Position numbers and translations under genes: made by a program | Shown: in pieces, positions 1,956-48,252 of the stretch | Layout: each line of letters starts with the position of its first letter | Position numbering within the stretch: the stretch's first letter is position 1 | The notes under the pieces: generated by a model | The model's input: the letters and a program-made list of their open reading frames with translations, nothing else | Told to the model about the DNA's origin: nothing | Database searches by the model: none | From: Diabrotica undecimpunctata | Lineage: Eukaryota; Arthropoda; Insecta; Coleoptera; Chrysomelidae | Direction: 5' to 3' | Assembly (NCBI RefSeq): GCF_040954645.1 | Contig: NC_092803.1 | Coordinates: 62,858,484-62,922,483 of the forward strand | Length of the DNA stretch: 64,000 nucleotides

Positions 1956-1957
<2 letters not shown>

Positions 1958-2735: not shown

Positions 2736-3035
2736 GCTCTGAACGTGAAAATAAATTTCTTGTGTCTTAGGAACCAACTCTAACATGACTTCGTATGGAC
2801 GCCAATAGCGACATCTGATATTAAAATCCGTAAACTAATTTTCGAAACCAAATTCAGGTTTTTGCTTTAATCTGTGTCTTCTAAGAATTGCAAGGCAAAA
2901 CAAACGTTGATAAAGACGTTAATAGAGACATAAGGAATCTAAAAATTGCATTCCACAACATATCTCCTCAACTAAGCCAAAATCCTTAGCGAATTTGGTT
3001 TCTAGTACTCGTACAGAGTATATCGGAATAAATAG

Positions 3036-3135
3036 GAAAAAGACAGTTAAGATTTAATGTCACGTATAGTGCGTTTGTGTATCCGCTTATACGTATTTCG
3101 CCCTAAAAGGGCTCTTCAGAACGATATTCACAGTC
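3036..3135 (+). repeat. dispersed direct repeat, copy 2
   Basis: Second copy of the repeat at 2636, in the same orientation and offset by exactly 400 bp. It carries the same TTATACGTATTTCGCCCTAA core with scattered substitutions and small indels. Confidence 0.85.
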
Positions 3136-6926: not shown

Positions 6927-6930
6927 ATTA

Positions 6931-7356
6931 TGTTACGATAAATTCTGACCCAAAACCGTAAATATATTTATTACTAATATTTTCATTCATTCACGTATTT
7001 TTTAGGTAATGCCTACCTGACACACGATGGGTCCCCCTTTGTAATAAAAACAACAATTCGAACCTTCTGGAGACAAGCCGATTTAACCATACCGGTTCTG
7101 AGAACAATTCGCCGCTCTGTCTAGAAGGCCGTAGACGATTCCAGTCTAACAGTAGTGAATATATAACAGGACTTTTTGGAGAATAGAGAACAGTTAATTC
7201 TGACACGCGCTCGCGATAAAATGTTACGTTCGCTTTTTAATAAATTATGTATATTTAGTGATAAATAAATTTAATATCAGTTATTGTGCTTTTTAATGAA
7301 TTAAGATAAGAACAAGACATTATAAATTAAATAGACATTGAACTAAAATCACAACA
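6931..7356 (+). repeat. 5' LTR of gypsy element 1
   Basis: 426 bp with TGTT...AACA termini. Contains a TATA-like TATATAACA near 7160, a conserved AACAGTTAATTCTGA start-site block (about 7189-7203), a CGCGCTCGCG palindrome-like core just after it, and AATAAA-type signals downstream. Matches 12888-13314 except for an A/G change in GAATAGAG and a 1-2 base change in the CTGACACGCG region. Confidence 0.96.
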
Positions 7357-7358
7357 AA

Positions 7359-7381
7359 TGGTGGCAGAAGTGAGATCGAAC
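7359..7381 (+). promoter_or_regulatory. primer binding site (tRNA-Leu type)
   Basis: TGGTGGCAGAAGTGAGATCG starts two bases after the LTR. It closely resembles the complement of insect tRNA-Leu 3' ends (TGGTGTCAGAAGTGGGATTC), the primer used by mdg3-like elements. The tRNA assignment comes from remembered primer sites, not from a tRNA in this window. Confidence 0.7.
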
Positions 7382-7432
7382 ATAAATTAGACTTATAATA
7401 ATAATACAAGTGAATATTTGTAAATTGTGAAA

Positions 7433-10400
7433 ATGACGACGATTTATGAGCTGACAGTGACTAATTTAAGAAGACATCTTAAAGACAGAGAATTAGCTTC
7501 TACCGGAAAAAAGGCTGAGTTAGTCCAACGACTAAAGAACGCTTTGCTAGAAGAAGGACTAGATTCAGAGACTTATATATTTGAAGATGCTGTCATCTCG
7601 TCGATTTCGAAATTACAGAACAAAGTTTCTGGTGACATCGCATCATTAGAGAACAAAGTTTCTGGCGATATTTCGAAAGTTTCTGGTGACATCGCATCAT
7701 TAGAGAACAAAGTTTCCGGCGACATCGCTTCTTTGGAAGACAAAGTTTCTAACGAGATTTCTTCGCTGGAAAGCAAAGTCTCTGCTAATATCTCTTTGGA
7801 AATCTCTAAAGTAACTTCTGAGATGTCTGCCCTCGACGATAGAATGTCTTCGTTAAAAAACCAAGTTGCTGCCGATATGTCGGCCTTCGAAGAAAAGATT
7901 AAAGAGATGGAAAGGAAGATGGAGGAAACAGGGACAGCAGAGAGAGGAAACAATCCAATTACAGTGGAGATAAAAGAAGACGAGACGAAATGTAAGTTGG
8001 AGACACGGCCGAAATTTGAAGGAAGTGGAGGTTCTATTCATGTTAAAGTCCCAACTTTCGACGGAAAATCATCATCGAACAACTACATGAAACAGTTCGA
8101 ATCAGCCGCAAGAGCGAATGGATGGTCTGAAAAAGAAAAGGCTGTAAACCTGACTATCGCTCTTCGAGGAGATGCCTTAGATGTGCTTCAGACCATAGCC
8201 GTAGAGGAGACCGATGATTTCGAACAACTGAAGAAGAGGTTAAATATGCGATATGGCCACGAACATTTGGAGCATGTATATCAGTCACAGCTTAAAAATC
8301 GTAGACAGAAGAAAGATGAGGCTCTTCAAGAATATGAGGTAGATATTGCCAGATTAGTACGATATGCTTATCCAACAGCGCCCGAAGACATGATGGAAAA
8401 ATTGGCCGTTCAAACGTTTATTGATGGTCTTCGTGATCATGAAATGCAGAGAACACTGCGATTAGCTCGTCACAAGACGCTGGTTGATGTCCTATCCGCC
8501 GCCCTCGAATACTAGTCAGCTACGCAGGCCTCTGGCGGGTACAGTAAAGTTAGGACTGTAAAAGAGGAAGGAGATGAAGATAAACTTGACCAGCTCGTTA
8601 ATATGATGAAAATTATTACATGCAAGAAAACGAAGACCATAAAATCAAGAAACTCACCATCAGGAAAACCAGAACGAGTCGGCTTTAGGGGAGCAGCTTC
8701 GACCCGGAACTTTTCCAAAGACCCTCTTATACTAATAGCTTCTTTGAAATGTCGTGAAGATAGTGTATATGTAGATGGAGAAATAAATGGTAAAAGACAT
8801 ACGTTGTTGGTGGATACCGGAGCGACCAGAACCATTATACGCCCGACAGTTATAAACAGCCGAAAGAAACTGTTACCAACGAGGTTGCGACTTCGGACCG
8901 CTACAGGTGAAAATGCCAACATTCTTGGAGAAATCCAGGTACAATTGGGAATTGGACCAGAACAGTTCGTCCATACTGTTATAGTTGCTGACATCGAAGA
9001 GGATGTTATATTAGGAATGGACGTAATGAATATGCATGGATTCCAATTGGATTTTAAGAATAAGGTAATCAAAGTTGGCAACAAGGAGGTATTTCTCCAT
9101 CCACATAATGACAACACTGTGCAAGCAGCCATTACAGAAGATACAGTCGTGCCTGCGAGAAGCGAAACGATCATAGTAGCGCGGCTACAGGGAATGGTGG
9201 ACGAAGGGAGACCTGTTATGATGGAGCCTTGGAACCACGACGATGAGGTTGGCCGTGGAATCATAATTGGAAAAGAATCGGTGACTTCGGCTAAGGAAAT
9301 TCCTGTGAGACTTATCAATGTCAACGACTACCCAGTGACCATAAAGAAAGAGACAAAGGTAGGAACTTGTGTACCTGTGACATCCATAATCCGTCAGGCG
9401 ACAACATCTGATAATTCCAACGACAAATTCGACCAAATGGTTGCAGTTGCAGGACAGTCTCTAAATCAGATGGAGAAAAGGAAATTAAGGGAATTTCTGC
9501 GGCAGTATCGTGATATTTTCGTACCGAAAGGAGGAAAGACGGGAAGAACTACCGTTGTTAAGCATAAAATTGATACTGGTAATGCTAAGCCAATTCGTCA
9601 AACAGCTCGACGATTACCACAGGCGAAGAGAGAGGAAGCTGAAACGATTGTTCAGGAAATGAAGAAATACGGGGTGATAGAACCTTCTACGAGCCCATGG
9701 GTCTTTCCGGTGGTCCTGGTTAAGAAGAAAGACGGAACGACGAGGTTCTGTGTGGATTACCGTTTGCTGAACAACGTTACCAAGAAAGATAGTTATCCTC
9801 TGCCTCGGATCGATGACATATTGGACACATTGGCTGGAAGTAAATTGTTTTCTACTTTAGATTTGAAGTCTGGATACTGGCAGGTAGAAATGGACCCAGT
9901 CGATAAAGAAAAGACAGCCTTCACCACAGGATCTGGATTGTGGCAATTCAACGTTATGGCATTTGGACTTTGTAATGCTCCTGCGACATTTGAGAGGCTT
10001 ATGGAAAATGTGTTGAGAGGGTTATCTTGGAAAATATGCCTGGTTTATTTAGATGACATAATCGTCTTGGGGGAGACATTCGAAGATCATTTGAGGAATT
10101 TAGAAAACGTTTTGAATCGACTTAAAGCTGCCCAATTGATGCTAAACCCCAAGAAGTGCCAGCTATTTCAAGGTAAAGTCAATTATCTGGGTCTTATAGT
10201 CAGTAAAGAAGGAGTGGCCGTGGATAAGGGAAAAATCGATTCCATTAAGGAATGGCCAAAACCAACTGACAAACATCAAGTGAGAAGTTTTCTTGGACTA
10301 TGTACTTACTACCGGAGGTTTATTAAGAAGTTTGCAGATATCGCTAAGCCATTAACGCGACTTACAGAGTAAGCAAGAGAATACCGCTGGGATACAGACT

Positions 10401-12898
10401 GCCAAAATGCCTTTGAGACCTTAAAAAAACCTCTAATAACAGCACCAATTTTAGGGTATCCACTGCCAGAAGGAGAGTTCATCTTAGATACGGATGGTAA
10501 TGTGAGAATTGGAGGAGTGCTGTCTCAGATTCAAGGAGGACAGGAACGAGTCCTCGGATATTTTAGTAAAGTTCTTTCAAAACCTGAGCGGAATTATTGC
10601 GTCACGAGAAGAGAACTTCTAGCAGTAGTTAAATCAGTAGAGCACTTCTATCAATACCTCTATGGCAGAAAGTTTCTAATCCGAACCGACCATGCCGCCC
10701 TTAAGTGGTTGATGCAGTTTAAGATTCCAGAGGGTCAGATAGCCAGGTGGATCGAACGACTCCAAGAATACGATTTTAAGATTGAGCACCGGGCCGGAGT
10801 TAGCCACAGAAACGCTGATTCTCTTTCCAAAAGGCCATGCCCAGCAGAGTGTTCCCACTGCAACAAAACGGAATCCAAGGAAGCAGCAGTGCTAAGAACG
10901 ACGATTGTCAACGACGACTGGACGCCTACTAAGATAAGGGCAGAACAAGAGAGAGATCCAGTTATACAGAAAATCCGAAAATGGAAAGAGGAAAACCGTC
11001 GACCACCTTGGCAGGAAATATCAAACCTATGCTCAGTAGTTAAGACGTATTGGGCCCAGTGGGACTCATTTATCATCGAAGATGGCTTGCTCAAACGAGT
11101 CCTGGAAAATGATGACGGTTCAGAGAAGAGAAGACAGTTGGTGATCCCAAACAGCAGAATAGCCGAAGTACTTCGTCAGTTACACGACAGTCCATCGGGA
11201 GGGCATTTTGGTGTAAGGAAAACCCTTCAGCGAATTCGGGAACGGTTTTATTGGATGAACAGTTCCGACGATGTAAAAGACTGGTGTAAGAAATGTACTA
11301 TTTGTGCCACGAGTAACGGGCCTTACCGAAAAAGGAGAGCTCCTATGAGACAATATAATGTTGGAAGCCCGTTTGAAAGAATAGCTTTGGACATCGCTGG
11401 GCCATTTCCAGAAAGTGAAAATGGAGGCAAATACATGCTGGTAGTAATGGATTACTTCACTAAGTGGGTCGAGATTTACGAACTTCCCGACCAGAAGGCC
11501 GCCACCGTTGCAGATAAGTTGATCCAAGAATATATCAGCCGATTTGGAGTGCCTTTGGAGATACATAGTGACCAAGGCAGGAACTTCGAAAGCGATCTAT
11601 TCCAAGGAATATGTGATAGACTAGGCATGAAGAAAACAAGAACTACCGCGTATCATCCGCAATCGGATGGTATGGTAGAACGAATGAATAGGACAGTTGG
11701 CAAGTATTTGACAAAGATGGTGTCCGATCATCAGCGAGACTGGGACCAATACCTTCCGTTCTTCACAATGGCCTACAGATCTGCTGTTAACGAATCAACA
11801 GGCCAGACACCAGCCAAAGTCCTATTCGGACGCGAAATGCGACTACCTTGTGATCTCGAGTTTGGATGTAAACCTGGAGAAGATGTAGCAGGTGAAGATT
11901 ATGTGATCGAATTACGAAGAAGAATGGACGATGTACATGAGTTGGTCCGTTCCCACCTTCAGATCGCTAGCGACAGAATGAAGAAACGGTACGATACACA
12001 CGCCGAAAAGGGTTGCTTTAAGAAGAACGACAAAGTATGGCTGTATAATCCCAAGAAGCGAAAAGGTTGTTCTCCCAAATTGCAGCAGTTTTGGGAAGGT
12101 CCATACCTCATTAGGGAGAAGATCAACGATGTCATCTACCGACTAAGCAAGATTCCGAGGGGAAAGCCGATGATAGTACACCATAACCGGTTGGCGTCTT
12201 TCGAAGGTGACCACAACGTAGATGAAGAAGTGGAAGTAACCCAAGTCCACGATGTGTTTGACCTCACGTTTGAGGAATTCATGGGTGCCTATGGAGGTAC
12301 CGGTAAAGCGAGACATGGTGTTACCACTGAAGAAAAGCAAGATCTACTTGCGCTCCCCGATGACTACTCGCTGGCCCTTACCATCCCGGCCAGTATCAAA
12401 GACGCACCAGGGTTGGCATCCGTCTTTCGAAGGAAGTTTGGTCGAGTTGCAGAACTTCAATGCCAAGTGCCAGCTCCCGGTAAAACCTTGAAACTCCAAG
12501 ATGCATCACGTTACCTTTTCTACCTGGTAACAAAAGACACTGCCCGTGACCAACCTACCTACCGAGATGTATGGGAAGCCTTACTTCAATTGAGAGAGCA
12601 CGTACTGGAGTCCGACGTGCAAAAGTTAGCCATGCCAAAGTTGGAGTGCCGCCAATTAGATTGGAGGGTTATCCGAAATATGGTGGAAGAGATCTTTAAA
12701 GACACCGAAGTCCAGGTGTTAGTCTGTTGCAATCCGCATAGTTACTGGTGCGGAGAGAAAACCGTCCCTTGTCATTTTTATACAACTGGAAGTTGTAAAA
12801 GAGGGTCCAGTTGCCGATACCAGCATACCGTTCCGGTTCCAGTCCCGACAAGGTTCCAGGAGGAACAATCTTTTAAGAGGGGGGCAATGTTACGATAA
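7433..12898 (+). pseudogene. gag-pol polyprotein of gypsy element 1, two nonsense codons
   Basis: One continuous frame (no frameshift) interrupted by TAG at 8513-8515, where element 2 has GAG, and TAA at 10370-10372, where element 2 has GAA. A 3-bp in-frame deletion near 10495 removes a residue beside the first RNase H aspartates. Domain order: SAP-like motif; coiled-coil with VSGDIASLE repeats; Gag core; protease with DTGA near 8815-8826; RT with intact YLDD (10046-10057); RNase H; integrase HHCC and DDE; GPY/F module; macro domain (about 12329-12730); CCCH finger starting at 12770. I start at ATG 7433, because the codon two before it is GTG. The stops fall after Gag and between RT and RNase H, so at best a Gag-only product is made. 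Confidence 0.93.
12873..12887 (+). promoter_or_regulatory. polypurine tract of element 1
   Basis: AAGAGGGGGGCAA sits directly upstream of the 3' LTR, the expected plus-strand primer for LTR retroelement DNA synthesis. Element 2 has the same tract at 30547-30559. Confidence 0.85.
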
Positions 12899-13314
12899 AT
12901 TCTGACCCAAAACCGTAAATATATTTATTACTAATATTTTCATTCATTCACGTATTTTTTAGGTAATGCCTACCTGACACACGATGGGTCCCCCTTTGTA
13001 ATAAAAACAACAATTCGAACCTTCTGGAGACAAGCCGATTTAACCATACCGGTTCTGAGAACAATTCGCCGCTCTGTCTAGAAGGCCGTAGACGATTCCA
13101 GTCTAACAGTAGTGAATATATAACAGGACTTTTTGGAGAATGGAGAACAGTTAATTCTGAAGACGCGCTCGCGATAAAATGTTACGTTCGCTTTTTAATA
13201 AATTATGTATATTTAGTGATAAATAAATTTAATATCAGTTATTGTGCTTTTTAATGAATTAAGATAAGAACAAGACATTATAAATTAAATAGACATTGAA
13301 CTAAAATCACAACA
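12888..13314 (+). repeat. 3' LTR of gypsy element 1
   Basis: 427 bp, TGTT...AACA, about 99% identical to the 5' LTR. Followed directly by ATTA, the right target duplication. Confidence 0.96.
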
Positions 13315-15050
13315 ATTATATCACACGGTTTGTATTTTGTGGTAATTTATTCCTACTAAGTTTCTAACACTAACTTAACTAAATTAAATAAACCTTGTAA
13401 TCTATACCCCTAATTAGTAACTAAATATCTAACTTTACTTGTGATCTAACTTAATCTAATTATACTTTAAACTACTAATTATAATTTAAGGTTACTTTTA
13501 TTTCAGATATCAATAGTTTTAATTATCTAAACGTCTGGTGGAAGAGAAGGTTATTATAAATACATCAGTTGTATATAACCACAGATAAACTATTTGAATA
13601 TGTGACTAGTATTATCCCAAATATGATAAGGTATACAAGATGGTTGCAGGGAAGGTAAAATGGTTTATTCTCACCAAGTTTATTATTCACTTTCCTTCTT
13701 AGGGTCTATAGCTTGGTTTTCTTTATATCCAATAACCCTACAATCAGCTTCTGGAAGTTGTAGATCCAAACGACGAACAGCTTGTATGGAAGCCAATAAA
13801 AAGTAAACACCAGATAGAAGATTTGAAGGAGACGAATATAAAATAAAAGTATAAGGTCGTTGATGTAAGGTGACCTTAATGTAAAATAATTCTCAATCAA
13901 GAATTTAATCCGCTATAAGTGCCTATTTTACAAATAGAATTGATTCCTGATCCTGTTGAGGTGAAATTGAGTTTTAAATCCAGAAATTTCCTGTATATTC
14001 AGTACCCTTGGCACATGTGAACCCAAAAATCTCAACCAACAATTCAAAGTACAACTTTTAGTTCCATGAACCAATAAATTGGCCTTTAGAAGTTGATGTC
14101 AAATAACCTGTAAGAAGAGGCTAAATGTCATGTCACTCAAGATAAGCATACCCTGCCATTAACCTAACATGTGACAGTTTTGATAAAGAAAACAATAACC
14201 TAAACAAGAACAATTTGAAAGATACATGAAGATGCTACCAGAAGAAAAATTAATTAATATTAAAAATAACCTAAATTAACTATAACTAAGTAAGTTTTTA
14301 TAAAATAAATTCAAAGCCAATTTATTGTCTATTTTATTTCTAGTTTCATTGACCACATAAGGAAAATAAACAAAGGAAATATTAAACCTGTAACAAAACC
14401 ATTTCTACTTCTAAAAATTTGCAGCAATTTAATTACCATGTAAACATCAAAAGCCTATTAATATGTCCCGACTTCTAGTCATTTGCTGTAATAAATATAT
14501 TCAGAACATGTTATCCTTTATGCACGTCTAGTCGGCATGCAAAATTAGGGCGACCTCAGCCCATATTCATCAGCATAACGCAGCAATGCGTGTGCTTTAT
14601 TACCATTTGGGAATATATTGGAGATCTCTACAAAACATCACAGGTGATGTCTGAAGGTACATTAAATGTTCTCCGAGGAATACAAATTACAAGATTATAC
14701 AAAAGGTTTTCATAATAAGCATTAAAATTAATGAAAATAATTAATGAAAGAATTAGAAAGTTTAAAGAAAATTATAAAAATTTTAGGAAAAAACTTACAA
14801 CTTTATGCACTCCTTGAAAGAATAAATAATAAAGAGCGTCTCTTGAGTCATTTTCGTAAAGAAATTTATACAAAAATTTACAACAAAAAACCGGAAGGAA
14901 GCTACTGATTATACCTTGGTTACTGTTCAAAGAAAAGACAAATCAAGCTTACTTTCCTAATAGTTTTGGGTGTTATCCAAAAACGTTGTTTTGCTAGTAA
15001 GTTTCTTAAATCTGGATAATAGAAACATGATTTTATTTTTTTCACCATCA

Positions 15051-23510: not shown

Positions 23511-24131
23511 CACTCTGGGCCAAAATTAACCAACCACCTTAAAAATAATAGTAATTTTTAATTTCTTATATCTTTTAAACCTGTTGTACGATTTAAGTGA
23601 TTTTTTTAATATGTTATAGCCTCATTCCTTGATAATATCTCTGTAATAATATTGTTGCTAAACAAATAAATTTTTATTGTATACCGGGTGTACGAATCAA
23701 ACTGTGTTTTTTTGTTAACGTTTGCATCACCCTGTGGAGTATTCTAGCATTTATAGAATACTGAAATTAAATCTTAACTATAGCCTCATGCTTTTCCAAT
23801 ATTTTGTTTTTGGATTGATTCGCTTATGTTGGATAATACAAAAGTTAGGTGCTTTAATAACTAGACAGGTTTTTTTATCAATTTTTATCTCCGCGGAAGA
23901 GAAAAAATAATCTTTTTGAAAAAAAGTTATTTGTTACAGTAAACATCCAATTAATAAAATCTTCGAAGAAAATTCAAATTAACATTTTAATATTTTGGAA
24001 ATCAAAGTCTAATTGAACAAAAAAATTGGGTATCAATAATGGGTATTTCTTTCATGGGTCATCCAGTCATATATTCATATCCTGGATATCAGATTGGGGG
24101 ATATTGTGCCACTCCTCTACCGCAGCTGTCT

Positions 24132-24627
24132 TCAGCTCTTCAAAGGATGCAAGGCTGGTACTCTTGCTCTTACCCGTCTTTTGAGGTTGTCCCAGATATA
24201 CTCAATTGGGTTAGGATCGGGACTGTGTGCTGGCCATGGTAGAACTTGAATCCCGATCTCATTAAGGTACTCACGGATAGATCTTGCTGTACGCCAACGT
24301 GCATTGTCATGCATTAGTCTGAAGTTATCACCAATGAATGGTGCAAAAGGCATGACATGGTCTTGGAGAACTTCTTGCACGTATACTTGGGCATTCACAC
24401 TACCTCTACCAAATACAACAAGATCAGTACGCGCTTCGTAAAAAATACCTCCCCACATCATTATTGACCCTCCTCGGTAAGCCACTGTTTCGGTTATAGC
24501 GCATGCAGCAAACCTTTCATTTTGACGACTATAGACAGGTTGGCGTCCATCTGGATTTTTTAGGGCTATTCTGCTCTCATCTAAGAACAGTATATTCTTC
24601 CATTCCGCCATAGTCCAGTTAGCATAT
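24132..24627 (-). pseudogene. Tc1-like transposase, C-terminal part (copy A)
   Basis: Minus-strand frame with the catalytic core of a DD34E Tc1-type transposase: FLDES (first D), MMWGGIFYEA, LMHDNARWR (second D) and SPDPNPIEYIWD (E, 34 residues after the second D). It acts by cut-and-paste at TA sites. The frame is interrupted upstream by gypsy element 2 at ATAT, and the N-terminal part continues at 30949. Confidence 0.9.
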
Positions 24628-25016
24628 TGTTACGATAATTATCCTGGCCTAAAATAACCGTAAATATTATGACTAATGCTGTTCTGTTTTAGAGTTTACG
24701 AGAGTATTCGATTAGCCGGCAGAAATTTACCTGAAGGGACCTTCCAGAAACGGTCGAGCCGATGTAAAAATACCCGTTTGCCTTACCGTTATAATTTCGC
24801 CGCTAATCGAGAAGGCTGTTCGATGATTCTAGCGTAAAAGCAATGGCATATATAAAGGACATTTTATTTGGAAGGAACAGTTAATTCTGAACCCGCGCTC
24901 GCGAATTTGTTACGTACGGATATAATAAATTATTGTCAGATAAGTTAATATAAATAAAGAAATAAATTAAATCCGTAAGTGTTATAAATATTGAACCTTT
25001 TAATAAATTCACAACA
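24628..25016 (+). repeat. 5' LTR of gypsy element 2
   Basis: 389 bp. A TATA box (CATATATAAAGG near 24848) is followed by AACAGTTAATTCTGA (about 24876-24890) and CGCGCTCGCGA, a block shared with element 1. Most of the rest is unlike the LTR of element 1. Differs from 30560-30948 only in CTGAAGGGAC against CTGAAAGGAC. Confidence 0.97.
24846..24905 (+). promoter_or_regulatory. LTR core promoter
   Basis: TATATAAAG lies about 28 bases before ACAGTTAATTCTG, which resembles an initiator. The same TATA-spacing-ACAGTTAATTCTGA-CGCGCTCGCG layout is present in the otherwise diverged LTR of element 1 (about 7157-7215), so this block is likely the conserved start site. Confidence 0.6.
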
Positions 25017-25018
25017 AA

Positions 25019-25040
25019 TGGTGTCAGAGTGAGATCGAAC
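25019..25040 (+). promoter_or_regulatory. primer binding site (tRNA-Leu type)
   Basis: TGGTGTCAGAGTGAGATCGA starts two bases after the LTR. It resembles the complement of tRNA-Leu (TGGTGTCAGAAGTGGGATTC) with a one-base gap. Confidence 0.7.
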
Positions 25041-25092: not shown

Positions 25093-28000
25093 ATGACGAC
25101 GATTTATGAGCTGACAGTGACTAATTTAAGAAGACATCTAGAAGACAGAGAATTAGCTTCTACCGGAAAAAAGGCTGAGTTAGTCCAACGACTAAAGAAC
25201 GCTTTGCTAGAAGAAGGACTAGATCCAGAGACTTATATATTTGAAGACAAACATGATGCTGTCCTCTCGTCGATTTCGAAAGTTTCTGGTGATGTAGCCA
25301 AAATTTCTGGTGACATCGCATCATTAGAGAACAAAGTTTCTGACGATATTTCGAAAGTTTCTTCTGATGTAGCCAAAGTTTCCGGCGACATCGCTTCGTT
25401 GGAAGACAAAGTTTCTAACGAGATTTCTTCGCTGGAAAGCAAAGTCTCTGCTAACATCTCTTCGGAAATCTCTAAAGTCACTTCTGAGATGTCTGCCCTG
25501 GACGATAGAATATCTTCATTAAAAAACCAAGTTGCTGCCGATATGTTAGCCTTCGAAGAAAAGATATGGAAAGAGATGGAAAAGAAGATGGAGGAAACAG
25601 GGACAGCAGAGAGAGGTAACAATCCGATTACAGTGGAGATAAAAGAAGACGAGACGAAATTTAAGTTGGAGACACGGCCGAAATTTGAAGGAAGTGGAGG
25701 TTCTATTCATGTTAAAGTCCCAACTTTCGACGGAAAATCATCATGGAACAACTACATGAAACAGTTCGAATCAGCCGCAAGAGCAAATGGATGGTCTGAA
25801 AAAGAAAAGGCTGTAAACCTGACTATCGCCCTTCGAGGGGATGCCTTAGATGTGCTTCAGACCATAGCCGTAGAGGAGACCGATGATTTCGAACAACTGA
25901 AGAAGAGGTTAAATATGCGATATGGCCACGAACATTTGGAGCATGTATATCAGTCACAGCTTAAAAATCGTAGACAGAAGAAAGATGAGGCTCTTCAAGA
26001 ATATGAGGTAGATATTGCCAGATTAGTACGATATGCTTATCCAACAGCTCCCGAAGACATGATGGAAAAATTGGCCGTTCAAACGTTTATTGATGGTCTT
26101 CGTGATCATGAAATGCAGAGAACACTACGATTAGCTCGTCACAAGACGCTGGTTGATGTCTTATCCGCCGCCCTCGAATACGAGTCAGCTACGCAGGCCT
26201 CTGGCGGGTACAGTAAAGTTAGGACTGTAAAAGAGGAAGGAGATGAAGATAAACTTGACCAGCTCTTTAATTTGATAAAAAGCATGACATGCAAGAAAAC
26301 GAAGACCATAAAATCAAGAAACTCACCATCGGAAAAACCAGAACGAGTCGGCTTTAGGGGAGCAGCTTCGACCCGGAACTTTTCCAAAGACCCTCTTATA
26401 CTAATAGCTTCTTTGAAATGTCGTGAAGATAGTGTATATGTAGATGGAGAAATAAATGGTAAAAGACATACGTTGTTGGTGGATACCGGAGCGACCAGAA
26501 CCATTATACGCCCGACAGTTATAAACAGCCGAAAGAAACTGTTACCAACGAGGTTGCGACTTCGGACCGCTACAGGTGAAAATGCTAACATTCATGGAGA
26601 AATCCAGGTACAATTGGGAATTGGAGCAGAAAAGTTTGTCCATACTGTTATAGTTGCTGACATCGAAGAGAATGTTATATTAGGAATGGACGTAATGAAT
26701 ATGCATGGATTCCAATTGGATTTTAAGAATAAGGTAATCAAAGTTGGCAACGAGGAAGTATTTCTCCATCCACATAATGACAACACTGTGCAAGCAGCCA
26801 TTAAAGAAGATACAGTCGTGCCTGCGAGAAGTGAAACGATCATAGTAGCGCGGCTACAGGGAATTGTGGACGAAGGGAGACCTGTTATGATGGAGCCTTG
26901 GAACCACGACGATGAGGTTGGCCGTGGAATCATAATTGGAAAGGAATTGGTGACTTTGGCTAAGGAAATTCCTGTGAGGCTTATCAATGTCAATGACTAC
27001 CCAGTGACCATAAAGAAAGAGACAAAAGTAGGAACTTGTGTACCTGTGACATCCATAATCCGTCAGGCGACAACATCTGATAATTCCCACGACAAATTCG
27101 ACCAAATGGTTGCAGTTGCAGGACAGTCTCTAAATCAGATGGAGAAAAGGAAATTAAGGAAATTTCTGCGGCAGTATCGTGATATTTTCGTACCGAAAGG
27201 AGGAAAGACGGGAAGAACTACCGTTGTTAAGCATAAAATTGATACTGGTAATGCTAAGCCAATTCGTCAAACAGCTCGACGATTACCACAGGCGAAGAGA
27301 GAGGAAGCTGAAACGATTGTTCAGGAAATGAAGAAAGACGGGGTGATAGAACCTTCTACGAGCCCATGGGTCTCTCCGGTGGTCCTGGTTAAGAAGAAAG
27401 ACGGAACGACGAGGTTCTGTGTGGATTACCGTTTGCTGAACAACGTTACCAAGAAAGATAGTTATCCTCTGCCTCGGATCGATGACACATTGGACACATT
27501 GGCTGGAAGTAAATTGTTTTCTACTTTAGATTTGAAGTCTGGATACTGGCAGGTAGAAATGGACCCAGTCGATAAAGAAAAGACAGCCTTCACCACAGGA
27601 TCTGGATTGTGGCAATTCAACGTTATGCCATTTGGACTTTGTAATGCTCCTGCGACATTTGAGAGGCTTATGGAAAATGTGTTGAGAGGGTTATCTTGGA
27701 AAACATGCCTGGTTTATTTAGATGTCATAATCGTCTTGGGGGAGACATTCGAAGATCATTTGAGGAATTTAGAAAACGTTTTTAATCGACTTAAAGCTGT
27801 CCAATTGATGCTAAACCCCAAGAAGTGCCAGCTATTTCAAGGTAAAGTCAATTATCTGGGTCATATAGTCAGTAAAGAAGGAGTGGCCGTGGATAAGGGA
27901 AAAATCGATTCCATTAAGGAATGGCCAAAACCAACTGACAAACATCAAGTGAGAAGTTTTCTTGGACTATGTACTTACTACCGGAGGTTTATTAAGAAGT

Positions 28001-30570
28001 TTGCAGATATCGCTAAGCCATTAACGCGACTTACAGAGGAAGCAAGAGAATACCGCTGGGATATAGACTGCCAAAATGCCTTTGAGACCTTGAAAAAGCA
28101 TTTAATAACAGCACCAATTTTAGGGTATCCACTGCCAGAAGGAGAGTTCATCTTAGATACAGATGCAAGTAATGTGGGAATTGGAGGAGTGCTGTCTCAG
28201 ATTCAAGGAGGACAGGAACGAGTCCTCGGATATTTTAGTAAAGTTCTTTCAAAACCTGAGCGGAATTATTGCGTCACGAGAAGAGAACTTCTGGCAGTAG
28301 TGAAATCAGTAGAGCACTTCTATCAATACCTCTATGGAAGGAAGTTTTTAATCCGAACCGACCATGCCGCCCTTAAGTGGTTGATGCAGTTTAAGAATCC
28401 AGAGGGTCAGATAGCCAGGTGGATCGAACGACTCCAAGAATACGATTTTAAGATTGAGCACCGAGCCGGAGTTAGCCACAGAAACGCTGATTCTCTTTCC
28501 AGACGGCCATGCCCAGCAGAGTGTCCCCACTGCAACAAAACGGAATCCAAGGAAGCAGCAGTGCTAAGAACGACGATTGTCAACGACGATTGGACGCCTA
28601 CTAAGATAAGGGAAGAACAAGAGAGAGATCCAGTTATACAGAAAATCCGAAAATGGAAAGAGGAAAACCGTCGACCACCTTGGCAGGAAATATCAAACCT
28701 ATGCTCAGTAGTTAAGACGTATTGGGCCCAGTGGGACTCATTTATCATCGAAGATGGCTTGCTCAAACGAGTCCTGGAAAATGATGACGGTTCAGAGAAA
28801 AGAAGACAGTTGGTGATCCCAAAGAGCAGAATAGCCGAAGTACTTCGTCAGTTACACGACAGTCCATCGGGAGGGCATTTTGGTGTAAGGAAAACCCTTC
28901 AGCGAATTCGGGAACGGTTTTATTGGATGAACAGTTCCGACGACGTAAAAGACTGGTGTAAGAAATGTACTATTTGTGCTACGAGTAACGGGCCTCACCG
29001 GAAAAGGAGAGCTCCTATGAGACAATATAATGTTGGAAGCCCGTTTGAAAGAATAGCTTTGGACATTGCAGGGCCATTTCCAGAAACTGAAAATGGGGGC
29101 AAGTACATGTTGGTAGTAATGGATTACTTCACTAAGTGGGTCGAGATTTACGCACTTCCAGACCAGAAGGCCGCCACCGTTGCAGATAAGTTGATCCAAG
29201 AATATATCAGCCGATTTGGAGTGCCTTTGGAGATCCATAGTGACCAAGGCAGGAACTTTGAAAGTGATCTATTCCAAGGAATATGTGATAGACTAGGCAT
29301 GAAGAAAACAAGAACTACCGCGTATCATCCGCAATCGGATGGTATGGTAGAACGAATGAATAGGACAGTTGGCAAGTATTTGACAAAGATGGTGTCCGAT
29401 CATCAGCGAGACTGGGACCAATACCTTCCGTTCTTCACAATGGCCTACAGATCTGCTGTTAACGAATCAACGGGCCAGACACCAGCCAGAGTCCTATTCG
29501 GACGCGAAATGCGACTACCTTGTGATCTAGAATTTGGGTGTCGACCTGGAGAAGATGTAGCAGGTGAAGATTATGTGATCGAATTACGAAGAAGAATGGA
29601 CGATGTACATGAGTTGGTCCGTTCCCACCTTCAGATCGCTAGCGACCGAATGAAGAAACGGTACGATACACAAGCCGAAAAGGGTTGCTTTAAGAAGAAC
29701 GACAAAGTATGGCTGTATAATCCCAAGAAGCGAAAAGGTTGTTCTCCCAAATTGCAGCAGTTTTGGGAAGGTCCATACCTCATCATGGAGAAGATCAACG
29801 ATGTCATCTACCGAATAAGCAAGATTCCGAGGGGCAAGCCAATGATAGTACACCATAACCGGCTGGCGTCTTTCGAAGGTGACCACGACGTAGATGAAGA
29901 AGTGGAAGTAAACCAAGTCCAAGACGTGTCTGACCTCACGTTTGAGGAATTCATGGGTGCCTATGGAGGTACCGGTAAAGCAAGACATGGTGTTACCACT
30001 GAAGAAAAGCAAGATCTACTCGCGCTCCCCGATGACTACTCGCTGGCCCTTACCATCCCGGCCAGTATCAAAGACGCACCAGGGTTGGCATCCGTCTTTC
30101 GAAGGAAGTTTGGTCGAGTTGCAGAACTTCAATGCCAGGTGCCAGCTCCCGGTAAAACCTTGAAACTCCAAGATGCATCACGTTACCTTTTCTACCTGGT
30201 AACAAAAGACACTGCCCGTGACCAACCTACCTACCGAGATGTGTGGGAAGCCTTACTTCAATTGAGAGAGCACGTACTAGAGTCCGACGTGCAAAAGTTA
30301 GCCATGCCAAAGTTGGAGTGCCGCCAATTAGATTGGAGGGTTATCCGAAATATGGTGGAGGAGATCTTTAAAGACACCGAAGTCCAGGTGTTAGTCTGTT
30401 GCAATCCGCATAGTTACTGGTGCGGAGAGAAAACCGTCCCTTGTCATTTTTATACAACTGGAAGTTGTAAAAGAGGGTCCAGTTGCCGATACCAGCATAC
30501 AGTTCCGGTTCCAGTCCCGACAAGGTTCCAGGAGGAACCATCTTTTAAGAGGGGGGCAATGTTACGATAA
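25093..30570 (+). CDS. Gag-Pol polyprotein with SAP, macro and CCCH domains
   Basis: 1,825 codons, starting at the first ATG (MTTIYELTV). SAP-type helix-loop-helix about residues 5-40 (LRRHLEDRELASTGKKAEL). Coiled coil about 50-165 with heptad-like VSxDIAS/SLExKVS repeats. Gag core about 200-365. Protease DTGA 464-467. RT about 710-900, with first catalytic Asp 813 and YLDV 875-878 where YLDD is expected. RNase H from Asp1022. Integrase: HHCC (H1255, H1262, C1292, C1295), then D1324, D1384, E1420. GPY/F near 1558. Macro domain 1636-1771, aligning by eye to OARD1/TARG1 (KxDLxxxP, SLA, FRRKFG, YLFYLVTK, PTY, MPKLEC). CCCH finger 1784-1802 (CX7CX5CX3H). No CCHC knuckle lies between Gag and protease. 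Gag and Pol share one frame. The frame is intact, but the RT change probably blocks autonomous replication. Confidence 0.95.
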   Translation: MTTIYELTVTNLRRHLEDRELASTGKKAELVQRLKNALLEEGLDPETYIFEDKHDAVLSSISKVSGDVAKISGDIASLENKVSDDISKVSSDVAKVSGDIASLEDKVSNEISSLESKVSANISSEISKVTSEMSALDDRISSLKNQVAADMLAFEEKIWKEMEKKMEETGTAERGNNPITVEIKEDETKFKLETRPKFEGSGGSIHVKVPTFDGKSSWNNYMKQFESAARANGWSEKEKAVNLTIALRGDALDVLQTIAVEETDDFEQLKKRLNMRYGHEHLEHVYQSQLKNRRQKKDEALQEYEVDIARLVRYAYPTAPEDMMEKLAVQTFIDGLRDHEMQRTLRLARHKTLVDVLSAALEYESATQASGGYSKVRTVKEEGDEDKLDQLFNLIKSMTCKKTKTIKSRNSPSEKPERVGFRGAASTRNFSKDPLILIASLKCREDSVYVDGEINGKRHTLLVDTGATRTIIRPTVINSRKKLLPTRLRLRTATGENANIHGEIQVQLGIGAEKFVHTVIVADIEENVILGMDVMNMHGFQLDFKNKVIKVGNEEVFLHPHNDNTVQAAIKEDTVVPARSETIIVARLQGIVDEGRPVMMEPWNHDDEVGRGIIIGKELVTLAKEIPVRLINVNDYPVTIKKETKVGTCVPVTSIIRQATTSDNSHDKFDQMVAVAGQSLNQMEKRKLRKFLRQYRDIFVPKGGKTGRTTVVKHKIDTGNAKPIRQTARRLPQAKREEAETIVQEMKKDGVIEPSTSPWVSPVVLVKKKDGTTRFCVDYRLLNNVTKKDSYPLPRIDDTLDTLAGSKLFSTLDLKSGYWQVEMDPVDKEKTAFTTGSGLWQFNVMPFGLCNAPATFERLMENVLRGLSWKTCLVYLDVIIVLGETFEDHLRNLENVFNRLKAVQLMLNPKKCQLFQGKVNYLGHIVSKEGVAVDKGKIDSIKEWPKPTDKHQVRSFLGLCTYYRRFIKKFADIAKPLTRLTEEAREYRWDIDCQNAFETLKKHLITAPILGYPLPEGEFILDTDASNVGIGGVLSQIQGGQERVLGYFSKVLSKPERNYCVTRRELLAVVKSVEHFYQYLYGRKFLIRTDHAALKWLMQFKNPEGQIARWIERLQEYDFKIEHRAGVSHRNADSLSRRPCPAECPHCNKTESKEAAVLRTTIVNDDWTPTKIREEQERDPVIQKIRKWKEENRRPPWQEISNLCSVVKTYWAQWDSFIIEDGLLKRVLENDDGSEKRRQLVIPKSRIAEVLRQLHDSPSGGHFGVRKTLQRIRERFYWMNSSDDVKDWCKKCTICATSNGPHRKRRAPMRQYNVGSPFERIALDIAGPFPETENGGKYMLVVMDYFTKWVEIYALPDQKAATVADKLIQEYISRFGVPLEIHSDQGRNFESDLFQGICDRLGMKKTRTTAYHPQSDGMVERMNRTVGKYLTKMVSDHQRDWDQYLPFFTMAYRSAVNESTGQTPARVLFGREMRLPCDLEFGCRPGEDVAGEDYVIELRRRMDDVHELVRSHLQIASDRMKKRYDTQAEKGCFKKNDKVWLYNPKKRKGCSPKLQQFWEGPYLIMEKINDVIYRISKIPRGKPMIVHHNRLASFEGDHDVDEEVEVNQVQDVSDLTFEEFMGAYGGTGKARHGVTTEEKQDLLALPDDYSLALTIPASIKDAPGLASVFRRKFGRVAELQCQVPAPGKTLKLQDASRYLFYLVTKDTARDQPTYRDVWEALLQLREHVLESDVQKLAMPKLECRQLDWRVIRNMVEEIFKDTEVQVLVCCNPHSYWCGEKTVPCHFYTTGSCKRGSSCRYQHTVPVPVPTRFQEEPSFKRGAMLR
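29995..30408 (+). other. macro (OARD1/TARG1-like) domain region
   Basis: Encodes residues 1636-1771 of the polyprotein. By eye it aligns without gaps to the N-terminal half of OARD1/TARG1: KQDLLALPDDYSLA corresponds to the KGDLF..P..DSLA adenine-binding start, and APGLASVFRRKFGRVAEL to GAGIA.LF..KFGGV.EL. YLFYLVTK keeps the lysine that is the catalytic Lys84 in human TARG1 (K1705 here). MPKLECRQLDW is two residues shorter than the family's MPRIGCGLDRLQW, which carries Asp125. Binding of ADP-ribose is plausible; hydrolysis is doubtful. Confidence 0.82.
30448..30504 (+). other. CCCH zinc finger at polyprotein C terminus
   Basis: CHFYTTGSCKRGSSCRYQH fits C-X7-C-X5-C-X3-H exactly, the classic CCCH RNA-binding finger. 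It is followed by a Pro/Val-rich tail and the stop. The finger is conserved in element 1 from 12770. Confidence 0.9.
30547..30559 (+). promoter_or_regulatory. polypurine tract of element 2
   Basis: AAGAGGGGGGCAA immediately precedes the 3' LTR and overlaps the last codons of gag-pol (the frame ends at 30570, inside the LTR). Confidence 0.85.
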
Positions 30571-30948
30571 TTATCCTGGCCTAAAATAACCGTAAATATT
30601 ATGACTAATGCTGTTCTGTTTTAGAGTTTACGAGAGTATTCGATTAGCCGGCAGAAATTTACCTGAAAGGACCTTCCAGAAACGGTCGAGCCGATGTAAA
30701 AATACCCGTTTGCCTTACCGTTATAATTTCGCCGCTAATCGAGAAGGCTGTTCGATGATTCTAGCGTAAAAGCAATGGCATATATAAAGGACATTTTATT
30801 TGGAAGGAACAGTTAATTCTGAACCCGCGCTCGCGAATTTGTTACGTACGGATATAATAAATTATTGTCAGATAAGTTAATATAAATAAAGAAATAAATT
30901 AAATCCGTAAGTGTTATAAATATTGAACCTTTTAATAAATTCACAACA
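30560..30948 (+). repeat. 3' LTR of gypsy element 2
   Basis: 389 bp, one base different from the 5' LTR, followed by ATAT and then the resumed Tc1 transposase sequence. Confidence 0.97.
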
Positions 30949-31353
30949 ATATTCTCGCACAAAATGAAGCCTAGGCCTACGGTGTTGTGGGAGCAGCTGT
31001 GGTGCGCGAGCTGGACGAAAACCCCTCAAGTTTATTTCTGACAGTCTTCTTCTAATCGTTTGTCTAGTCATACTAACGTCTCTCACCTCAAGAAGAGAAC
31101 CACGAGCTTTAGGAGCGGTGCAAAAGCGATTTCTTAATACTTTAATGACAATGAAGCAGTCATCTCGAACTGAAGTGTATAGTTTTCGGCCTTGACCTGG
31201 CCTGCAGTTGTAAGATCCTGTCTCCCGAAATTGTCTGTCGATCTTGTACCGTAGTTCTGTGTACATCGAGTATACCAGCGATATGATGTTGACTGTAACC
31301 AGCATCAACTACAGCCACTGCCCTAGCAGCATCAGTTGGAAAGAGTGGCATTT
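30949..31353 (-). pseudogene. Tc1-like transposase, N-terminal part (copy A)
   Basis: Minus strand, starting MPLFPTDAARAVAVVDAGYS with a helix-turn-helix (HHIAGILDVHRTTV). It shifts frame near 31265 and continues as FRETGSYNCRPGQGRK, then MTRQTIRRRLSEINLRG (second DNA-binding helix set) and RRPRLHFVREY, which joins the catalytic part across the gypsy insertion. The same frameshift occurs in copy B, so the parent was already defective. Confidence 0.85.
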
Positions 31354-31402
31354 TTAAAATCACAAAAATAAATAAGCACTAAAATTTCAACCAAATTTAA
31401 TT

Positions 31403-31964: not shown

Positions 31965-32239
31965 TAAGAGAGACAAGAGAAAAAATAATAATCTTAGGCG
32001 ATTGGAATTCAAGAGTAGGTAAGAACATTAACAGAGGATTAAGATGCATTGAACAATATGGGGAAGAAACATTAAATAGAAATGAAATTAAAATGCTGGA
32101 ATTCTGCCAAACCAATGACCTGATAATAGGAAACACATTCAGTAAACAAACCATTAACGATAAATATACATTTGTGGCTGAAGAGAGAAATGCGAAAAGC
32201 TTAATCGACTATACATACAGTCTATACGACAAAACCTGT
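31965..32239 (+). pseudogene. RTE-type LINE endonuclease fragment
   Basis: Plus strand near 31986 reads IIILGDWNSRVG, the conserved GDxN block of APE-type LINE endonucleases. It is followed by EIKMLEFCQTNDLIIGNTFS, also typical of RTE/BovB-like elements. Only about 90 codons remain, cut on the right by Tc1 copy B and on the left by repeat X. Confidence 0.7.
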
Positions 32240-34284
32240 CTGTAATAATATTGTTGCTAAACAAATAAATTTTTATTGTATACCGGGTGTACGAATCAAA
32301 CTATGTTTTTTTGTTAAAGTTTGCATCACCCTGTGGAGTATTCTAGCATTTATAGAATACTGAAATTAAATCTTAACTATAGCCTCATGCTTTTCCAATA
32401 TTTTGTTTTTGGATTGATTCGCTTATGTTGGATAATACAAAAGTTAGGTGCTTTAATAACTAGACATGTTTTTTTATCAATTTTTATCTCCGCGGAAGAG
32501 AAAAAATAATCTTTTTGAAAAAAAGTTATTTGTTACAGTAAACATCCAATTAATAAAATCTTCGAAGAAAATTCAAATTAACATTTTAATATTTTGGAAA
32601 TCAAAGTCTAATTGAACAAAAAAATTGGGTATCAATAATGGGTATTTCTTTCATGGGTCATCCAGTCATATATTCATATCCTGGATATCAGATTGGGGGA
32701 TATTGTGCCACTCCTCTACCGCAGCTGTCTTCAGCTCTTCAAAGGATGCAAGGCTGGTACTCTTGCTCTTACCCGTCTTTTGAGGTTGTCCCAGATATAC
32801 TCAATTGGGTTAGGATCGGGACTGTGTGCTGGCCATGGTAGAACTTGAATCACGATCTCATTAAGGTACTCACGGATAGATCTTGCTGTACGCCAACGTG
32901 CATTGTCATGCATTAGTCTGAAGTTATCACCAATGAATGGTGCAAAAGGCATGACATGGTCTTGGAGAACTTCTTGCACGTATACTTGGGCATTCACACT
33001 ACCTCTACCAAATACAACAAGATCAGTACGCGCTTCGTAAAAAATACCTCCCCACATCATTATTGACCCTCCTCGGTAAGCCACTGTTTCGGTTATAGCG
33101 CATGCAGCAAACCTTTCATTTTGACGACTATAGACAGGTTGGCGTCCATCTGGATTTTTTAGGGCTATTCTGCTCTCATCTAAGAACAGTATATTCTTCC
33201 ATTCCGCCATAGTCCAGTTAGCATATTCTCGCACAAAATGAACCTAGGCCTACGGTGTTGTGGGAGCAGCTGTGGTGCGCGAGCTGGACGAAAACCCCTT
33301 AAGTTTATTTCTGACAGTCTTCTTCTAATCGTTTGTCTAGTCATACTAACGTCTCTCACCTCAAGAAGAGAATGACGAGCTTTAGGAGCGGTGCAAAAGC
33401 GATTTCTTAATACTTTAATGACAATGAAGCAGTCATCTCGAACTGAAGTGTATAGTTTTCGGCCTTGACCTGGCCTGCAGTTGTACGATCCTGTCTCCCG
33501 AAATTGTCTGTTGATCTTGTACCGTAGTTCTGTGTACATCGAGTATACCAGCGATATGATGTTGACTGTAACCAGCATCAACTACAGCCACTGCCCTAGC
33601 AGCATCAGTTGGAAAGAGTGGCATTTTTAAAATCACAAAAATAAATAAGCACTAAAATTTTAACTTAAACGATATTCGCTCACAATGATATAAAATTACA
33701 ATTTTAATTGTTAATTTTAATAACAAATTTAATTTAAATTACAAATTGTTCAAGAATTGTTATTAACACGAAAACAGATTTGTAACAATGTCGTACAACG
33801 ACTATATGTCAAAAATCCTTCAATGGCACAAATTTAGAAAACAATCTGTCACAGGTAATGTAAACAAAACAATAATAAAGGTTTTGGGGTTAATTTTGCT
33901 GGTGAGTTAAGTCGTCGGTATTGATGAAAAATATAGCTAGTTGTTAAATTACCTTACTTTTGTATTATCCAACATAAGCAAATGAATCAAAAACCAAAAT
34001 TTTGAGAAAACATGAGGCTATAGTTAGGTTTTAATTTCAATATTTTATAAGTACTAGAATATTTCACACAGTGATGCAAACTTTAAGAAAAAAAAAGTTT
34101 AATTCGTACACCCGGTATACGATGAAAATTTACCTATTTAGCAACCATGGTATAATAAAGATATTGCCAAGGAATAATGCTATAATATATTAAAAAAATC
34201 ACTTAAATTTGACAAGAGGTTTAGGAGATATGACATCAAAAAGTGCCCATTTTTAAGGTGGCCGGTTAATTTTGGTCCAGAGTG
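32240..34284 (-). mobile_element. Tc1-like transposon copy B
   Basis: Nearly identical to copy A from 32240 (equivalent to 23641) through about 33655, but without the gypsy insertion. Its outer right end CCAGAGTG at 34284 is the complement of the left end of copy A, and about 400 bp of inward sequence mirrors that of copy A. It lacks the outer 130 bp of the left TIR, so A and B are truncated at opposite ends. Confidence 0.86.
32731..33626 (-). pseudogene. Tc1-like transposase (copy B)
   Basis: Same DD34E transposase as copy A in one piece: HTH start MPLFPTDAARAV, DNA-binding domain, then FLDES, LMHDNA and SPDPNPIEYIWD. It carries the frameshift near 33540 shared with copy A, plus its own 1-bp loss near 33241 (AATGAACCTAGG against AATGAAGCCTAGG in A). 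It is therefore not functional. The catalytic region differs from copy A by about one base. Confidence 0.87.
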
Positions 34285-46520: not shown

Positions 46521-48179
46521 ATGACAAAAAAGCCCTCATTCACATTCAGATATCCGTCCCCCAAAATGGATCGCTCTCGATCCCCGCCTGACAGAAAGGC
46601 ACCCCCCAGTCCCACCCCATATGGTTACAGTGAGAGGAAACTCCACTGTAACATCTACGACGCACTACCCCCCATGGATGATGACAGCGCAAACTACGAA
46701 ATATTCAAGGAACTGCCGATAGAAGACGAAAAACAAGAAAACGAAGGGGAATTCAAACGTCCCAAAAACAAGAAGAAGAGGACAAAAGACAGAGCGGAGG
46801 GAAACCGCGAAGAACCACAAACTACCGACGACGATACGCCAAAAAGGCTAACGCAAAAAAGGACAAGACAGAGAAGTAGCGAGGACGACAAGTCCGAACT
46901 ACTTGCATTAAGGACATTATTAAAAGAAAAAGATGCAGAAATTGCATCTTTAAGGAAAAAGATACAAGAGCTCCAAGACACAATGGTAGCCTCTCAAAAG
47001 TCCATCATCGAACACATGGACAAGAAGTTCAACCAACTGAACTCAAAAAATCCCGAGGAAAACCTGGCAAACCAGGCACAGAAATATAAACAAGAAGACA
47101 ACCTGAAAAATCAGGCAAAACCGGAGGAAAACCCTAAAACTCAGGGCAAAAAGAAGCAAAAAACCACAGGAGCCATTCCAAAGAATACTCAAGCCGAAGC
47201 TACGGGAACAATCCCAAAAAATACACAAAAAGAAGAAAAAATAACAAAAGGAAGAAAAGAAGATTTCCCACCCCTCACCCCTCCGAAACAACATCAGGAA
47301 GGTGAAGCTAAAGCTGATCGGCGTCCTCCGTCTCCGTCACAGATGGACATTGAAGTTGCTCCCAAGAAAACTTGGGCAAAACCACCTGTAATCAAATTAC
47401 AGAGTGTGAGATACACAGGTGCAATACTAAGTATTGCACAAAAACAACAAATCATCACAGCGAACAAGCTGTCGAGAAGTGGAAGAGAAACACTCATCCA
47501 AGCAAAGAACCCCGAGGACTATCGCAAAATGGTGAAAATCATTGAAAAATTCAATGAAGAAAATCCAATTCAATGGATTGCATTCCCATTAGAAGAAGAC
47601 ATCAAACCAAGGATGGTTTTGAGAGGGTTACCTCCAACTACGAACACGACTGAAATGTTCGAGGCCATCAGAGATGAGTATGATATAGAAGTCGTGTCGA
47701 TTAAGAACATGACTTCAAGAAAAAGCGACAGAAGACACTTACCAATGTTTGTCATGACGGTGGAGAGGGAGGACACCGAAAAGCTAAAAGGCATCACTAA
47801 CCTGATGCACATGAAAATTAAAATAGAGGATTTACGCAAAGCAACAGGGCCCACACAGTGCTTCAACTGCCAGGGCTACCATCACGCGCAGAGAGCGTGC
47901 TTTAAAGCACCCCGCTGCGTAAAATGCGGAGAGGAACACTCCAGCAAAAGCTGCCAATTGCCCAAAGATCAAAAGGCAAAATGTGCAAATTGCCAAGGAC
48001 AGCACCCAGCAAATTTCAGGGGATGCCCAAGATGCCCTACATGGGGACGTCAACAGCAGCTCCAACAAAGACAGAACGCAACGGCGCAAAGAAGGCCACA
48101 AATCACTCCCGGCGGCCCATCATACGCCCAGGCAGCAACAACAAAAGTACAAGATAAGGAAAACACCATCACGGCCTAG
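46521..48179 (+). CDS. Jockey LINE ORF1 (Gag-like RNA-binding protein)
   Basis: 552 codons from ATG 46521. An N-terminal Pro/Ser-rich and acidic region is followed by a Lys/Glu-rich coiled coil about residues 115-170 (LLKEKDAEIASLRKKIQELQ). Next comes a basic, Gln/Asn-rich linker, then an RRM-like PRE_C2HC region about 365-445 (RMVLRGLPPTTNTTEMFEAI). Three knuckles follow: CFNCQGYHHAQRAC from residue 447 (CX2CX4HX4C), CVKCGEEHSSKSC (CX2CX3HX4C) and CANCQGQHPANFRGC. In Jockey-clade LINEs this protein coats the element RNA. The frame is intact and ends 74 bp before ORF2. Confidence 0.9.
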   Translation: MTKKPSFTFRYPSPKMDRSRSPPDRKAPPSPTPYGYSERKLHCNIYDALPPMDDDSANYEIFKELPIEDEKQENEGEFKRPKNKKKRTKDRAEGNREEPQTTDDDTPKRLTQKRTRQRSSEDDKSELLALRTLLKEKDAEIASLRKKIQELQDTMVASQKSIIEHMDKKFNQLNSKNPEENLANQAQKYKQEDNLKNQAKPEENPKTQGKKKQKTTGAIPKNTQAEATGTIPKNTQKEEKITKGRKEDFPPLTPPKQHQEGEAKADRRPPSPSQMDIEVAPKKTWAKPPVIKLQSVRYTGAILSIAQKQQIITANKLSRSGRETLIQAKNPEDYRKMVKIIEKFNEENPIQWIAFPLEEDIKPRMVLRGLPPTTNTTEMFEAIRDEYDIEVVSIKNMTSRKSDRRHLPMFVMTVEREDTEKLKGITNLMHMKIKIEDLRKATGPTQCFNCQGYHHAQRACFKAPRCVKCGEEHSSKSCQLPKDQKAKCANCQGQHPANFRGCPRCPTWGRQQQLQQRQNATAQRRPQITPGGPSYAQAATTKVQDKENTITA

Positions 48180-48252
48180 TTAACTCTGTGAAAGAGTTAC
48201 TAACTAGAGTAGTCAACGAGGCGATAGCAGATATAAAGCTAGCACTGAACTA

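Follow-up and report, generated by a model that had tools for sequence, protein, structure and literature searches.

A Ty3/gypsy retrotransposon lineage of beetles carrying a TARG1/OARD1-type macro domain and a CCCH zinc finger behind its integrase

A stretch of 64,000 nucleotides from Diabrotica undecimpunctata (NCBI RefSeq assembly GCF_040954645.1, contig NC_092803.1, positions 62,858,484 to 62,922,483 of the forward strand; hereafter the window) contains a Ty3/gypsy long terminal repeat (LTR) retrotransposon, element 2, whose single polyprotein frame continues past the integrase into a macro domain of the TARG1/OARD1 type and a CCCH zinc finger. The best explanation is that an ancestor of this lineage in beetles gained both domains as a C-terminal extension of the integrase. 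The residue pair used by TARG1 for catalysis is intact in most readable relatives and broken in the two families found in D. undecimpunctata.

Structure and domains of element 2

The features are listed below in window coordinates, with strand and residues of the polyprotein.

24624..24627 and 30949-30952, no strand: target-site duplication ATAT, 4 bp, left and right copies, read against the uninterrupted copy of the flank at 32239-33664
24628..25016, +: 5' LTR, TGTTACG...CAACA, 389 bp
25019..25036, +: candidate primer-binding site (TGGTGTCAGAGTGAGATC), from the sequence
25093..30570, +: one open frame covering Gag, Pol, macro domain and CCCH finger, 1,825 codons and a stop
25111..25206, +: SAP domain at the Gag start (residues 7-38), Pfam PF02037, E 1.2e-5
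25213..25692, +: repetitive coiled-coil-like Gag stretch (residues 41-200), by eye, with a tandem repeat at 25272-25427
25822..26106, +: Retrotrans_gag (residues 244-338), Pfam
26440..26700, +: aspartic protease (residues 450-536), Pfam
27388..27870, +: reverse transcriptase (RT; residues 766-926), motif YLDV, Pfam
28057..28443, +: RNase H (residues 989-1117), Pfam
28816..29331, +: integrase zinc finger and core (residues 1242-1413), Pfam
29770..29868, +: integrase p58/GPY-F C-terminal domain (residues 1560-1592), Pfam
29869..30006, +: linker preceding the macro domain, signature F-x-x-FM...GVT-x-E, pattern match
30007..30405, +: TARG1/OARD1-type macro domain (residues 1639-1771), PDB/fold and sequence comparison
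30442..30498, +: CPSF30-like CCCH zinc finger C-x7-C-x5-C-x3-H (residues 1784-1802), Pfam PF00642; PDB CPSF4, E 1.4e-11
30547..30557, +: polypurine tract, by eye, doubling as coding sequence for the end of the frame
30560..30948, +: 3' LTR, by LTR comparison
6930..13315, +: element 1, second copy of the family of element 2, LTRs 6930-7357 and 12887-13315, frame broken by stops

Near-identical LTRs (1 mismatch in 389), a polypurine tract and a short target-site duplication mark element 2 as a Ty3/gypsy element, and the order of its Pfam domains (Gag, protease, RT, RNase H, integrase) is that of the Ty3/gypsy (Metaviridae) type. The stop codon falls within the 3' LTR; there is no space for an env gene, and no further frame lies between the macro-CCCH tail at the integrase end and the LTR. 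Element 2 is classed as a Ty3/gypsy LTR retrotransposon that has captured an apparently new module, and not as a TARG1 enzyme, because the equivalent of Asp125 of TARG1 is absent. It lies in only one copy of a stretch of about 1.4 kb that is duplicated in the window (23640-24628 with 30949-31391; 32239-33664) at 98-99.6% identity.

A first-pass annotation, made from the letters of the window, had described a Ty3/gypsy Pol ending in an OARD1/TARG1-type macro domain after the integrase, which Pfam, PDB matches and the predicted fold all confirm; the fold predicted for the macro region is of the ALC1/TARG1 type. The finger that it had noted in the tail scores above the Pfam cut-off, and its top PDB matches are CPSF30/CPSF4 (best CPSF4); when the tail was scanned alone, seven Pfam families matched at E up to 0.1, every one of CCCH type or Torus. 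RNA binding by the finger is predicted from its type. The SAP domain proposed for the Gag start was likewise recovered (25.2 bits in the window protein at a cut-off of 23.9; weak against PDB, E 0.02) and is also present in the Aromia relative P0003 (35.2 bits, Pfam E 9.2e-9). A CCHC knuckle pattern was not found in the nine family proteins scanned, among them P0002, which is without Gag. The likeness to host PARPs that the annotation had seen in the union of macro domain and CCCH finger is superficial, and a PARP-like origin was rejected: the macro domain is of TARG1 type and the finger is closest in PDB to CPSF30/CPSF4. The Pfam scan of the tail (E up to 0.1) gave no ART catalytic or WWE domain beside the two, and no PARP occurred among 28 PDB matches.

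Distribution and origin of the fusion

The whole protein, searched region by region, matched 8 proteins (seven of Aromia moschata, one without a species name), and a search with the tail yielded 165, of which 120 were listed. The genera among those listed include Aromia, Molorchus, Brassicogethes, Gonioctena, Leptinotarsa, Callosobruchus, Acanthoscelides, Diabrotica, Pyrocoelia, Aquatica and the planthopper Nilaparvata. Matches were counted as pieces of elements by clade, integrase p58 domain, CCCH finger or linker signature; the signature pattern was present in 12 of 19 element proteins and in none of six host OARD1 proteins (among the seven element proteins missed are some that start inside the signature and two that have Tyr instead of Phe). 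A third search returned 198 proteins, and the 120 listed were from Aromia throughout. The tail, which the first-pass annotation had taken for a family trait, is open, with the same layout, in several beetle families. In viral contigs of IMG/VR, 83 pattern matches were obtained and none was confirmed as a relative.

The protein searches gave fusion relatives in several beetle families, and the phylogeny a single clade of element domains. In a tree of 61 domains, 26 element rows stood on one side of a branch with support 99/98 (the bootstrap had not settled), and in a tree of 62 rows, with rows of a second Diabrotica family and the locus L011 added, 30 element rows stood together (99/97). A clear sister of the elements among the host genes was not resolved in these trees. 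A tree joining the elements with the beetle host genes L011 and P0102 (Exocentrus) was not rejected, being slightly better than the free tree (approximately unbiased test, p-AU 0.59). Of the proposed capture of a host hydrolase, the acquisition of an OARD1/TARG1-type domain by a Ty3/gypsy lineage stands; a beetle-type host OARD1 gene as donor would be compatible with the data. On the trees alone, a single capture looks no different from one after which the element passed from host to host.

L011, found with the host-type query P0063, is probably the host's own gene: at 1036-3087 (- strand) it holds a 683-residue frame that has a long low-complexity start and retains both catalytic residues in a TARG1-type domain; no integrase was seen in it. 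Its C-terminal part may, by eye, be a degenerate second macro domain; Pfam gave no match at E 0.01. P0038 of Nilaparvata lugens, named OARD1-like, falls on a long branch inside the beetle element clade and bears no other mark of an element; it may be a relative of the elements from outside the beetles, or else be misplaced in the tree.

Four proteins of Diabrotica and Leptinotarsa are named 'ADP-ribose glycohydrolase OARD1-like' (P0030, P0034, P0042 and P0107). The first three lie in the element clade, P0042 also has an integrase p58 domain, and P0107 starts, by eye, with an integrase end; on these grounds all four look like retrotransposon pieces. As a practical warning, such entries are not to be taken as expansions of a host enzyme.

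The catalytic pair

Catalysis by TARG1 uses Lys84 and Asp125 (PMC9411070; PMC7050489, which prints Glu125). In the window protein the equivalent of Lys84 is residue 1705 (30205-30207), and a two-residue deletion at 30321/30322 has removed Leu124-Asp125. The pair was surveyed in 48 element proteins, namely P0001-P0003 and 45 of the 120 listed tail matches, chosen by element marks or beetle name; 42 were readable at both sites, six ending early or being broken there. Both residues are kept in 35 of the 42 (including P0020, with a shortened loop after Asp), Asp is absent in six with a loop shorter by two residues (P0001, P0002, P0011, P0013, P0030 and P0107), and Glu stands at this position in P0059. 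Of 121 Aromia proteins, 117 matched the Lys motif and 117 the Asp motif; of the four missed by the Asp motif, three still have Asp and one has Gly. The window's group of six forms one clade with support 100/100 in the tree of 61 domains, which lacks P0107 and includes P0034, unreadable at the pair. Because both residues persist in these 35 relatives, we infer that the ancestral domain was an ADP-ribosyl hydrolase.

The query P0063 gave, beside L011, 149 further matches in the genome of the window. The 49 of these that were read (L012-L020 and L022-L061) are taken to be a second family of elements with macro domain and CCCH finger. Over most of the stretch 48 of them could be aligned, and every one of these carries Arg in place of Lys84; the other position is Asp in 45 and Asn in three. 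The two Diabrotica families were placed as sisters with weak support (85/74). Each retains the residue that the other has lost, and the plain reading is therefore that two separate losses would have occurred within Diabrotica, in opposite halves of the pair. Ordinary TARG1-type hydrolysis by the window copy is not supported, the pair being broken, and in Diabrotica the TARG1 mechanism of hydrolysing ADP-ribose esters has most likely been lost. A mutant of TARG1 at residue 125 traps a covalent intermediate in vitro (PMC7050489); by analogy, and as speculation, an Asp-less domain that retains Lys could even hold its substrate covalently.

Maintenance of the domain and activity of the family

Elements 1 and 2 were selected as a pair without any domain score. 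Their macro domains show no nonsynonymous change among 308 sites and 5 synonymous changes among 91 (Fisher p 0.0006). Elsewhere in the frame the counts are 65 nonsynonymous among 3,919 sites and 66 synonymous among 1,094 (p 3e-13). The domain appears maintained in the beetle of the window. In the second family, whose copies were picked by score to the host-type query (a possible bias), variants of the macro domain shared by at least three copies were 10 nonsynonymous and 13 synonymous, and singletons 55 and 26 (p 0.0497); for the linker and integrase end the counts were 8 and 8 shared, 40 and 14 singletons (p 0.12). In 21 comparisons between pair-intact proteins, macro identity exceeded linker identity in 18, equalled it in one and fell below it in two. 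Whether the domain evolves faster once the pair is lost received a mixed answer: maybe relative to the linker, with no difference seen by eye relative to the integrase end.

Elements 1 and 2 are 96.7% identical across 5.6 kb. Neither looks autonomous, because element 1 has stops and the RT of element 2 reads YLDV. The LTR of element 1 gave no match to that of element 2. Recent activity was sampled in the LTR regions of ten further copies, picked for long frames: nine LTR pairs (one 5' LTR was not found) had 0 or 1 mismatches over 99-388 aligned bases, and in eight of the nine the LTR matched that of the window only partly, which points to LTR subfamilies, the compared lengths being short. L062-L081 have the same macro domain and LTRs only partly like those of the window, as if LTR ends had been swapped between subfamilies. 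A 127-residue macro stretch identical to that of the window occurs at 150 places in the 1.74 Gb genome searched, the window's two included; these 150 were scored out of 5,253 candidates and, being chosen by score, are uninformative on constraint. Differences in genome size within Diabrotica have been ascribed to gypsy elements and miniature inverted-repeat transposable elements (MITEs); larger genomes occur in the virgifera group, to which D. undecimpunctata does not belong (PMC8982398). The window also holds a non-LTR retrotransposon at 46521-50932 (+ strand) in three frames, with a PRE_C2HC-like Gag (below cut-off), an AP endonuclease and an RT.

Possible functions of the macro-CCCH tail

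The explanation that we favour, at a little less than even confidence, is that the domain in Diabrotica no longer acts by the TARG1 mechanism, is kept for binding and helps to place the integrase complex. Acting as reader or tether, the macro domain would bring the integrase complex to chromatin or proteins that bear ADP-ribose, while the CCCH finger grips RNA; chromodomains place the integrase complexes of chromoviruses in a comparable way. A bolder version is rather doubtful: two families of one beetle genome, each by losing the opposite half of the pair, would independently have made of the captured hydrolase a reader of ADP-ribose without catalysis, which tethers the integrase to PARP-marked chromatin. 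We know of no target-choice module of this kind among integrases. What PARP-1 does in retroviral integration is a matter of dispute; it has been reported to silence retroviruses once they are integrated (PMC4808796).

Several observations weigh against retention for binding. In the window protein the diphosphate loop reads DAPG (MSRG in most relatives) and the GCGLD loop is also altered, and because of these two changes ADP-ribose binding itself may have been lost. The loss of Asp is no proof of lost activity, since DarG, a Lys-only relative, is still an active hydrolase (PMC9411070). The test between the window copies compares a single pair, and the last 150 bases of the second family, which contain the finger and a few codons beyond the stop, give no sign of constraint (shared variants 5 nonsynonymous and 0 synonymous, singletons 22 and 7). 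Identity between the window protein and P0002 is 68% in the macro domain, 91% in the RT, 95% in RNase H, 88% in the integrase and 73% in the linker, and in six comparisons between Asp-less proteins macro identity was higher than linker identity in three and lower in three.

An alternative of lower probability is that the integrase-linked domain removes ADP-ribose added by the host, either from silencing or antiviral proteins or from cDNA ends before integration. The pair is intact in the 35 readable proteins counted above and, among the Aromia proteins listed, in nearly all. TARG1 removes ADP-ribose from the ends of nucleic acids as well as from proteins (PMC7050489), L1 is silenced through mono-ADP-ribosylation of KAP1 by SIRT6 (PMC4695847), and PARP-1 was reported to repress integrated retroviruses (PMC4808796). 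It is possible, again with limited confidence, that pair-intact families would follow the TARG1 route and the window family a Lys-only route like that of DarG, which hydrolyses thymidine-linked ADP-ribose (PMC9411070). Against removal, the window family is without the Asp125-bearing loop, and the second Diabrotica family is abundant despite Arg in place of the Lys used by both TARG1 and DarG; the case is strongest for the pair-intact families and the DarG-like route of the window family and weakest for the Arg-for-Lys family. It is improbable that the domain has a role that does not involve ADP-ribose, such as that of a folded spacer or of a protein- or RNA-binding surface presenting the finger to element RNA in packaging. 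In favour of such a role, the fold is retained while the pocket residues drift in Diabrotica, and the finger resembles CPSF30 and could replace the knuckle missing from the proteins scanned; against it, the pair, needless for a mere spacer, is kept in 35 of 42 readable relatives. That the tail is a functionless read-through product is very unlikely. Its lower identity to P0002 than that of the other large Pol domains would suit such a passenger; the absence of nonsynonymous changes between the window copies and the open tail of constant layout in several beetle families speak against it. An artefact of assembly or annotation, or a chance resemblance, has a negligible probability and was rejected on the PDB matches, the 150 identical genomic stretches and the comparison of structure and sequence.

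Comparison with known systems

In this fusion a fold that processes ADP-ribose is coupled directly to the integrase of an animal retrotransposon, and natural variants are available on one scaffold: domains with the pair intact (Aromia type), without Asp (window) and with Arg for Lys (second Diabrotica family). The fusion bears on the use of ADP-ribose by hosts against transposons and on the ability of integrases to read ADP-ribose. Searches of an open-licence literature library, which does not cover subscription papers or Repbase entries, yielded no description of Ty3/gypsy elements with an integrase-macro fusion. A precedent for a macro domain in an LTR retroelement is given by fish retroviruses with a macro-domain open reading frame (2009 work as cited in PMC4977317); there it is apparently an additional frame and not an integrase fusion, and the cited passage does not state the type of macro domain. 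Macro domains of the MacroD type occur in RNA viruses (PMC7050489); those of alphaviruses and rubella virus are not fused to an integrase, and identity was 11-15% in the comparison with alphaviruses. The macrodomain of DarG, the DNA-ADP-ribose hydrolase of the bacterial toxin-antitoxin pair DarTG, is 19-24% identical. Human TARG1 (OARD1, C6orf130), the terminal ADP-ribose protein glycohydrolase, differs in that the domain here belongs to a polyprotein with integrase and CCCH finger, with Asp125 deleted in the window family and Lys84 replaced by Arg in the second. Chromoviruses are Ty3/gypsy elements with a C-terminal integrase extension, the chromodomain; like them, the window element carries an extra module after the GPY/F end of the integrase, which here is a TARG1-type macro domain with a CCCH finger.
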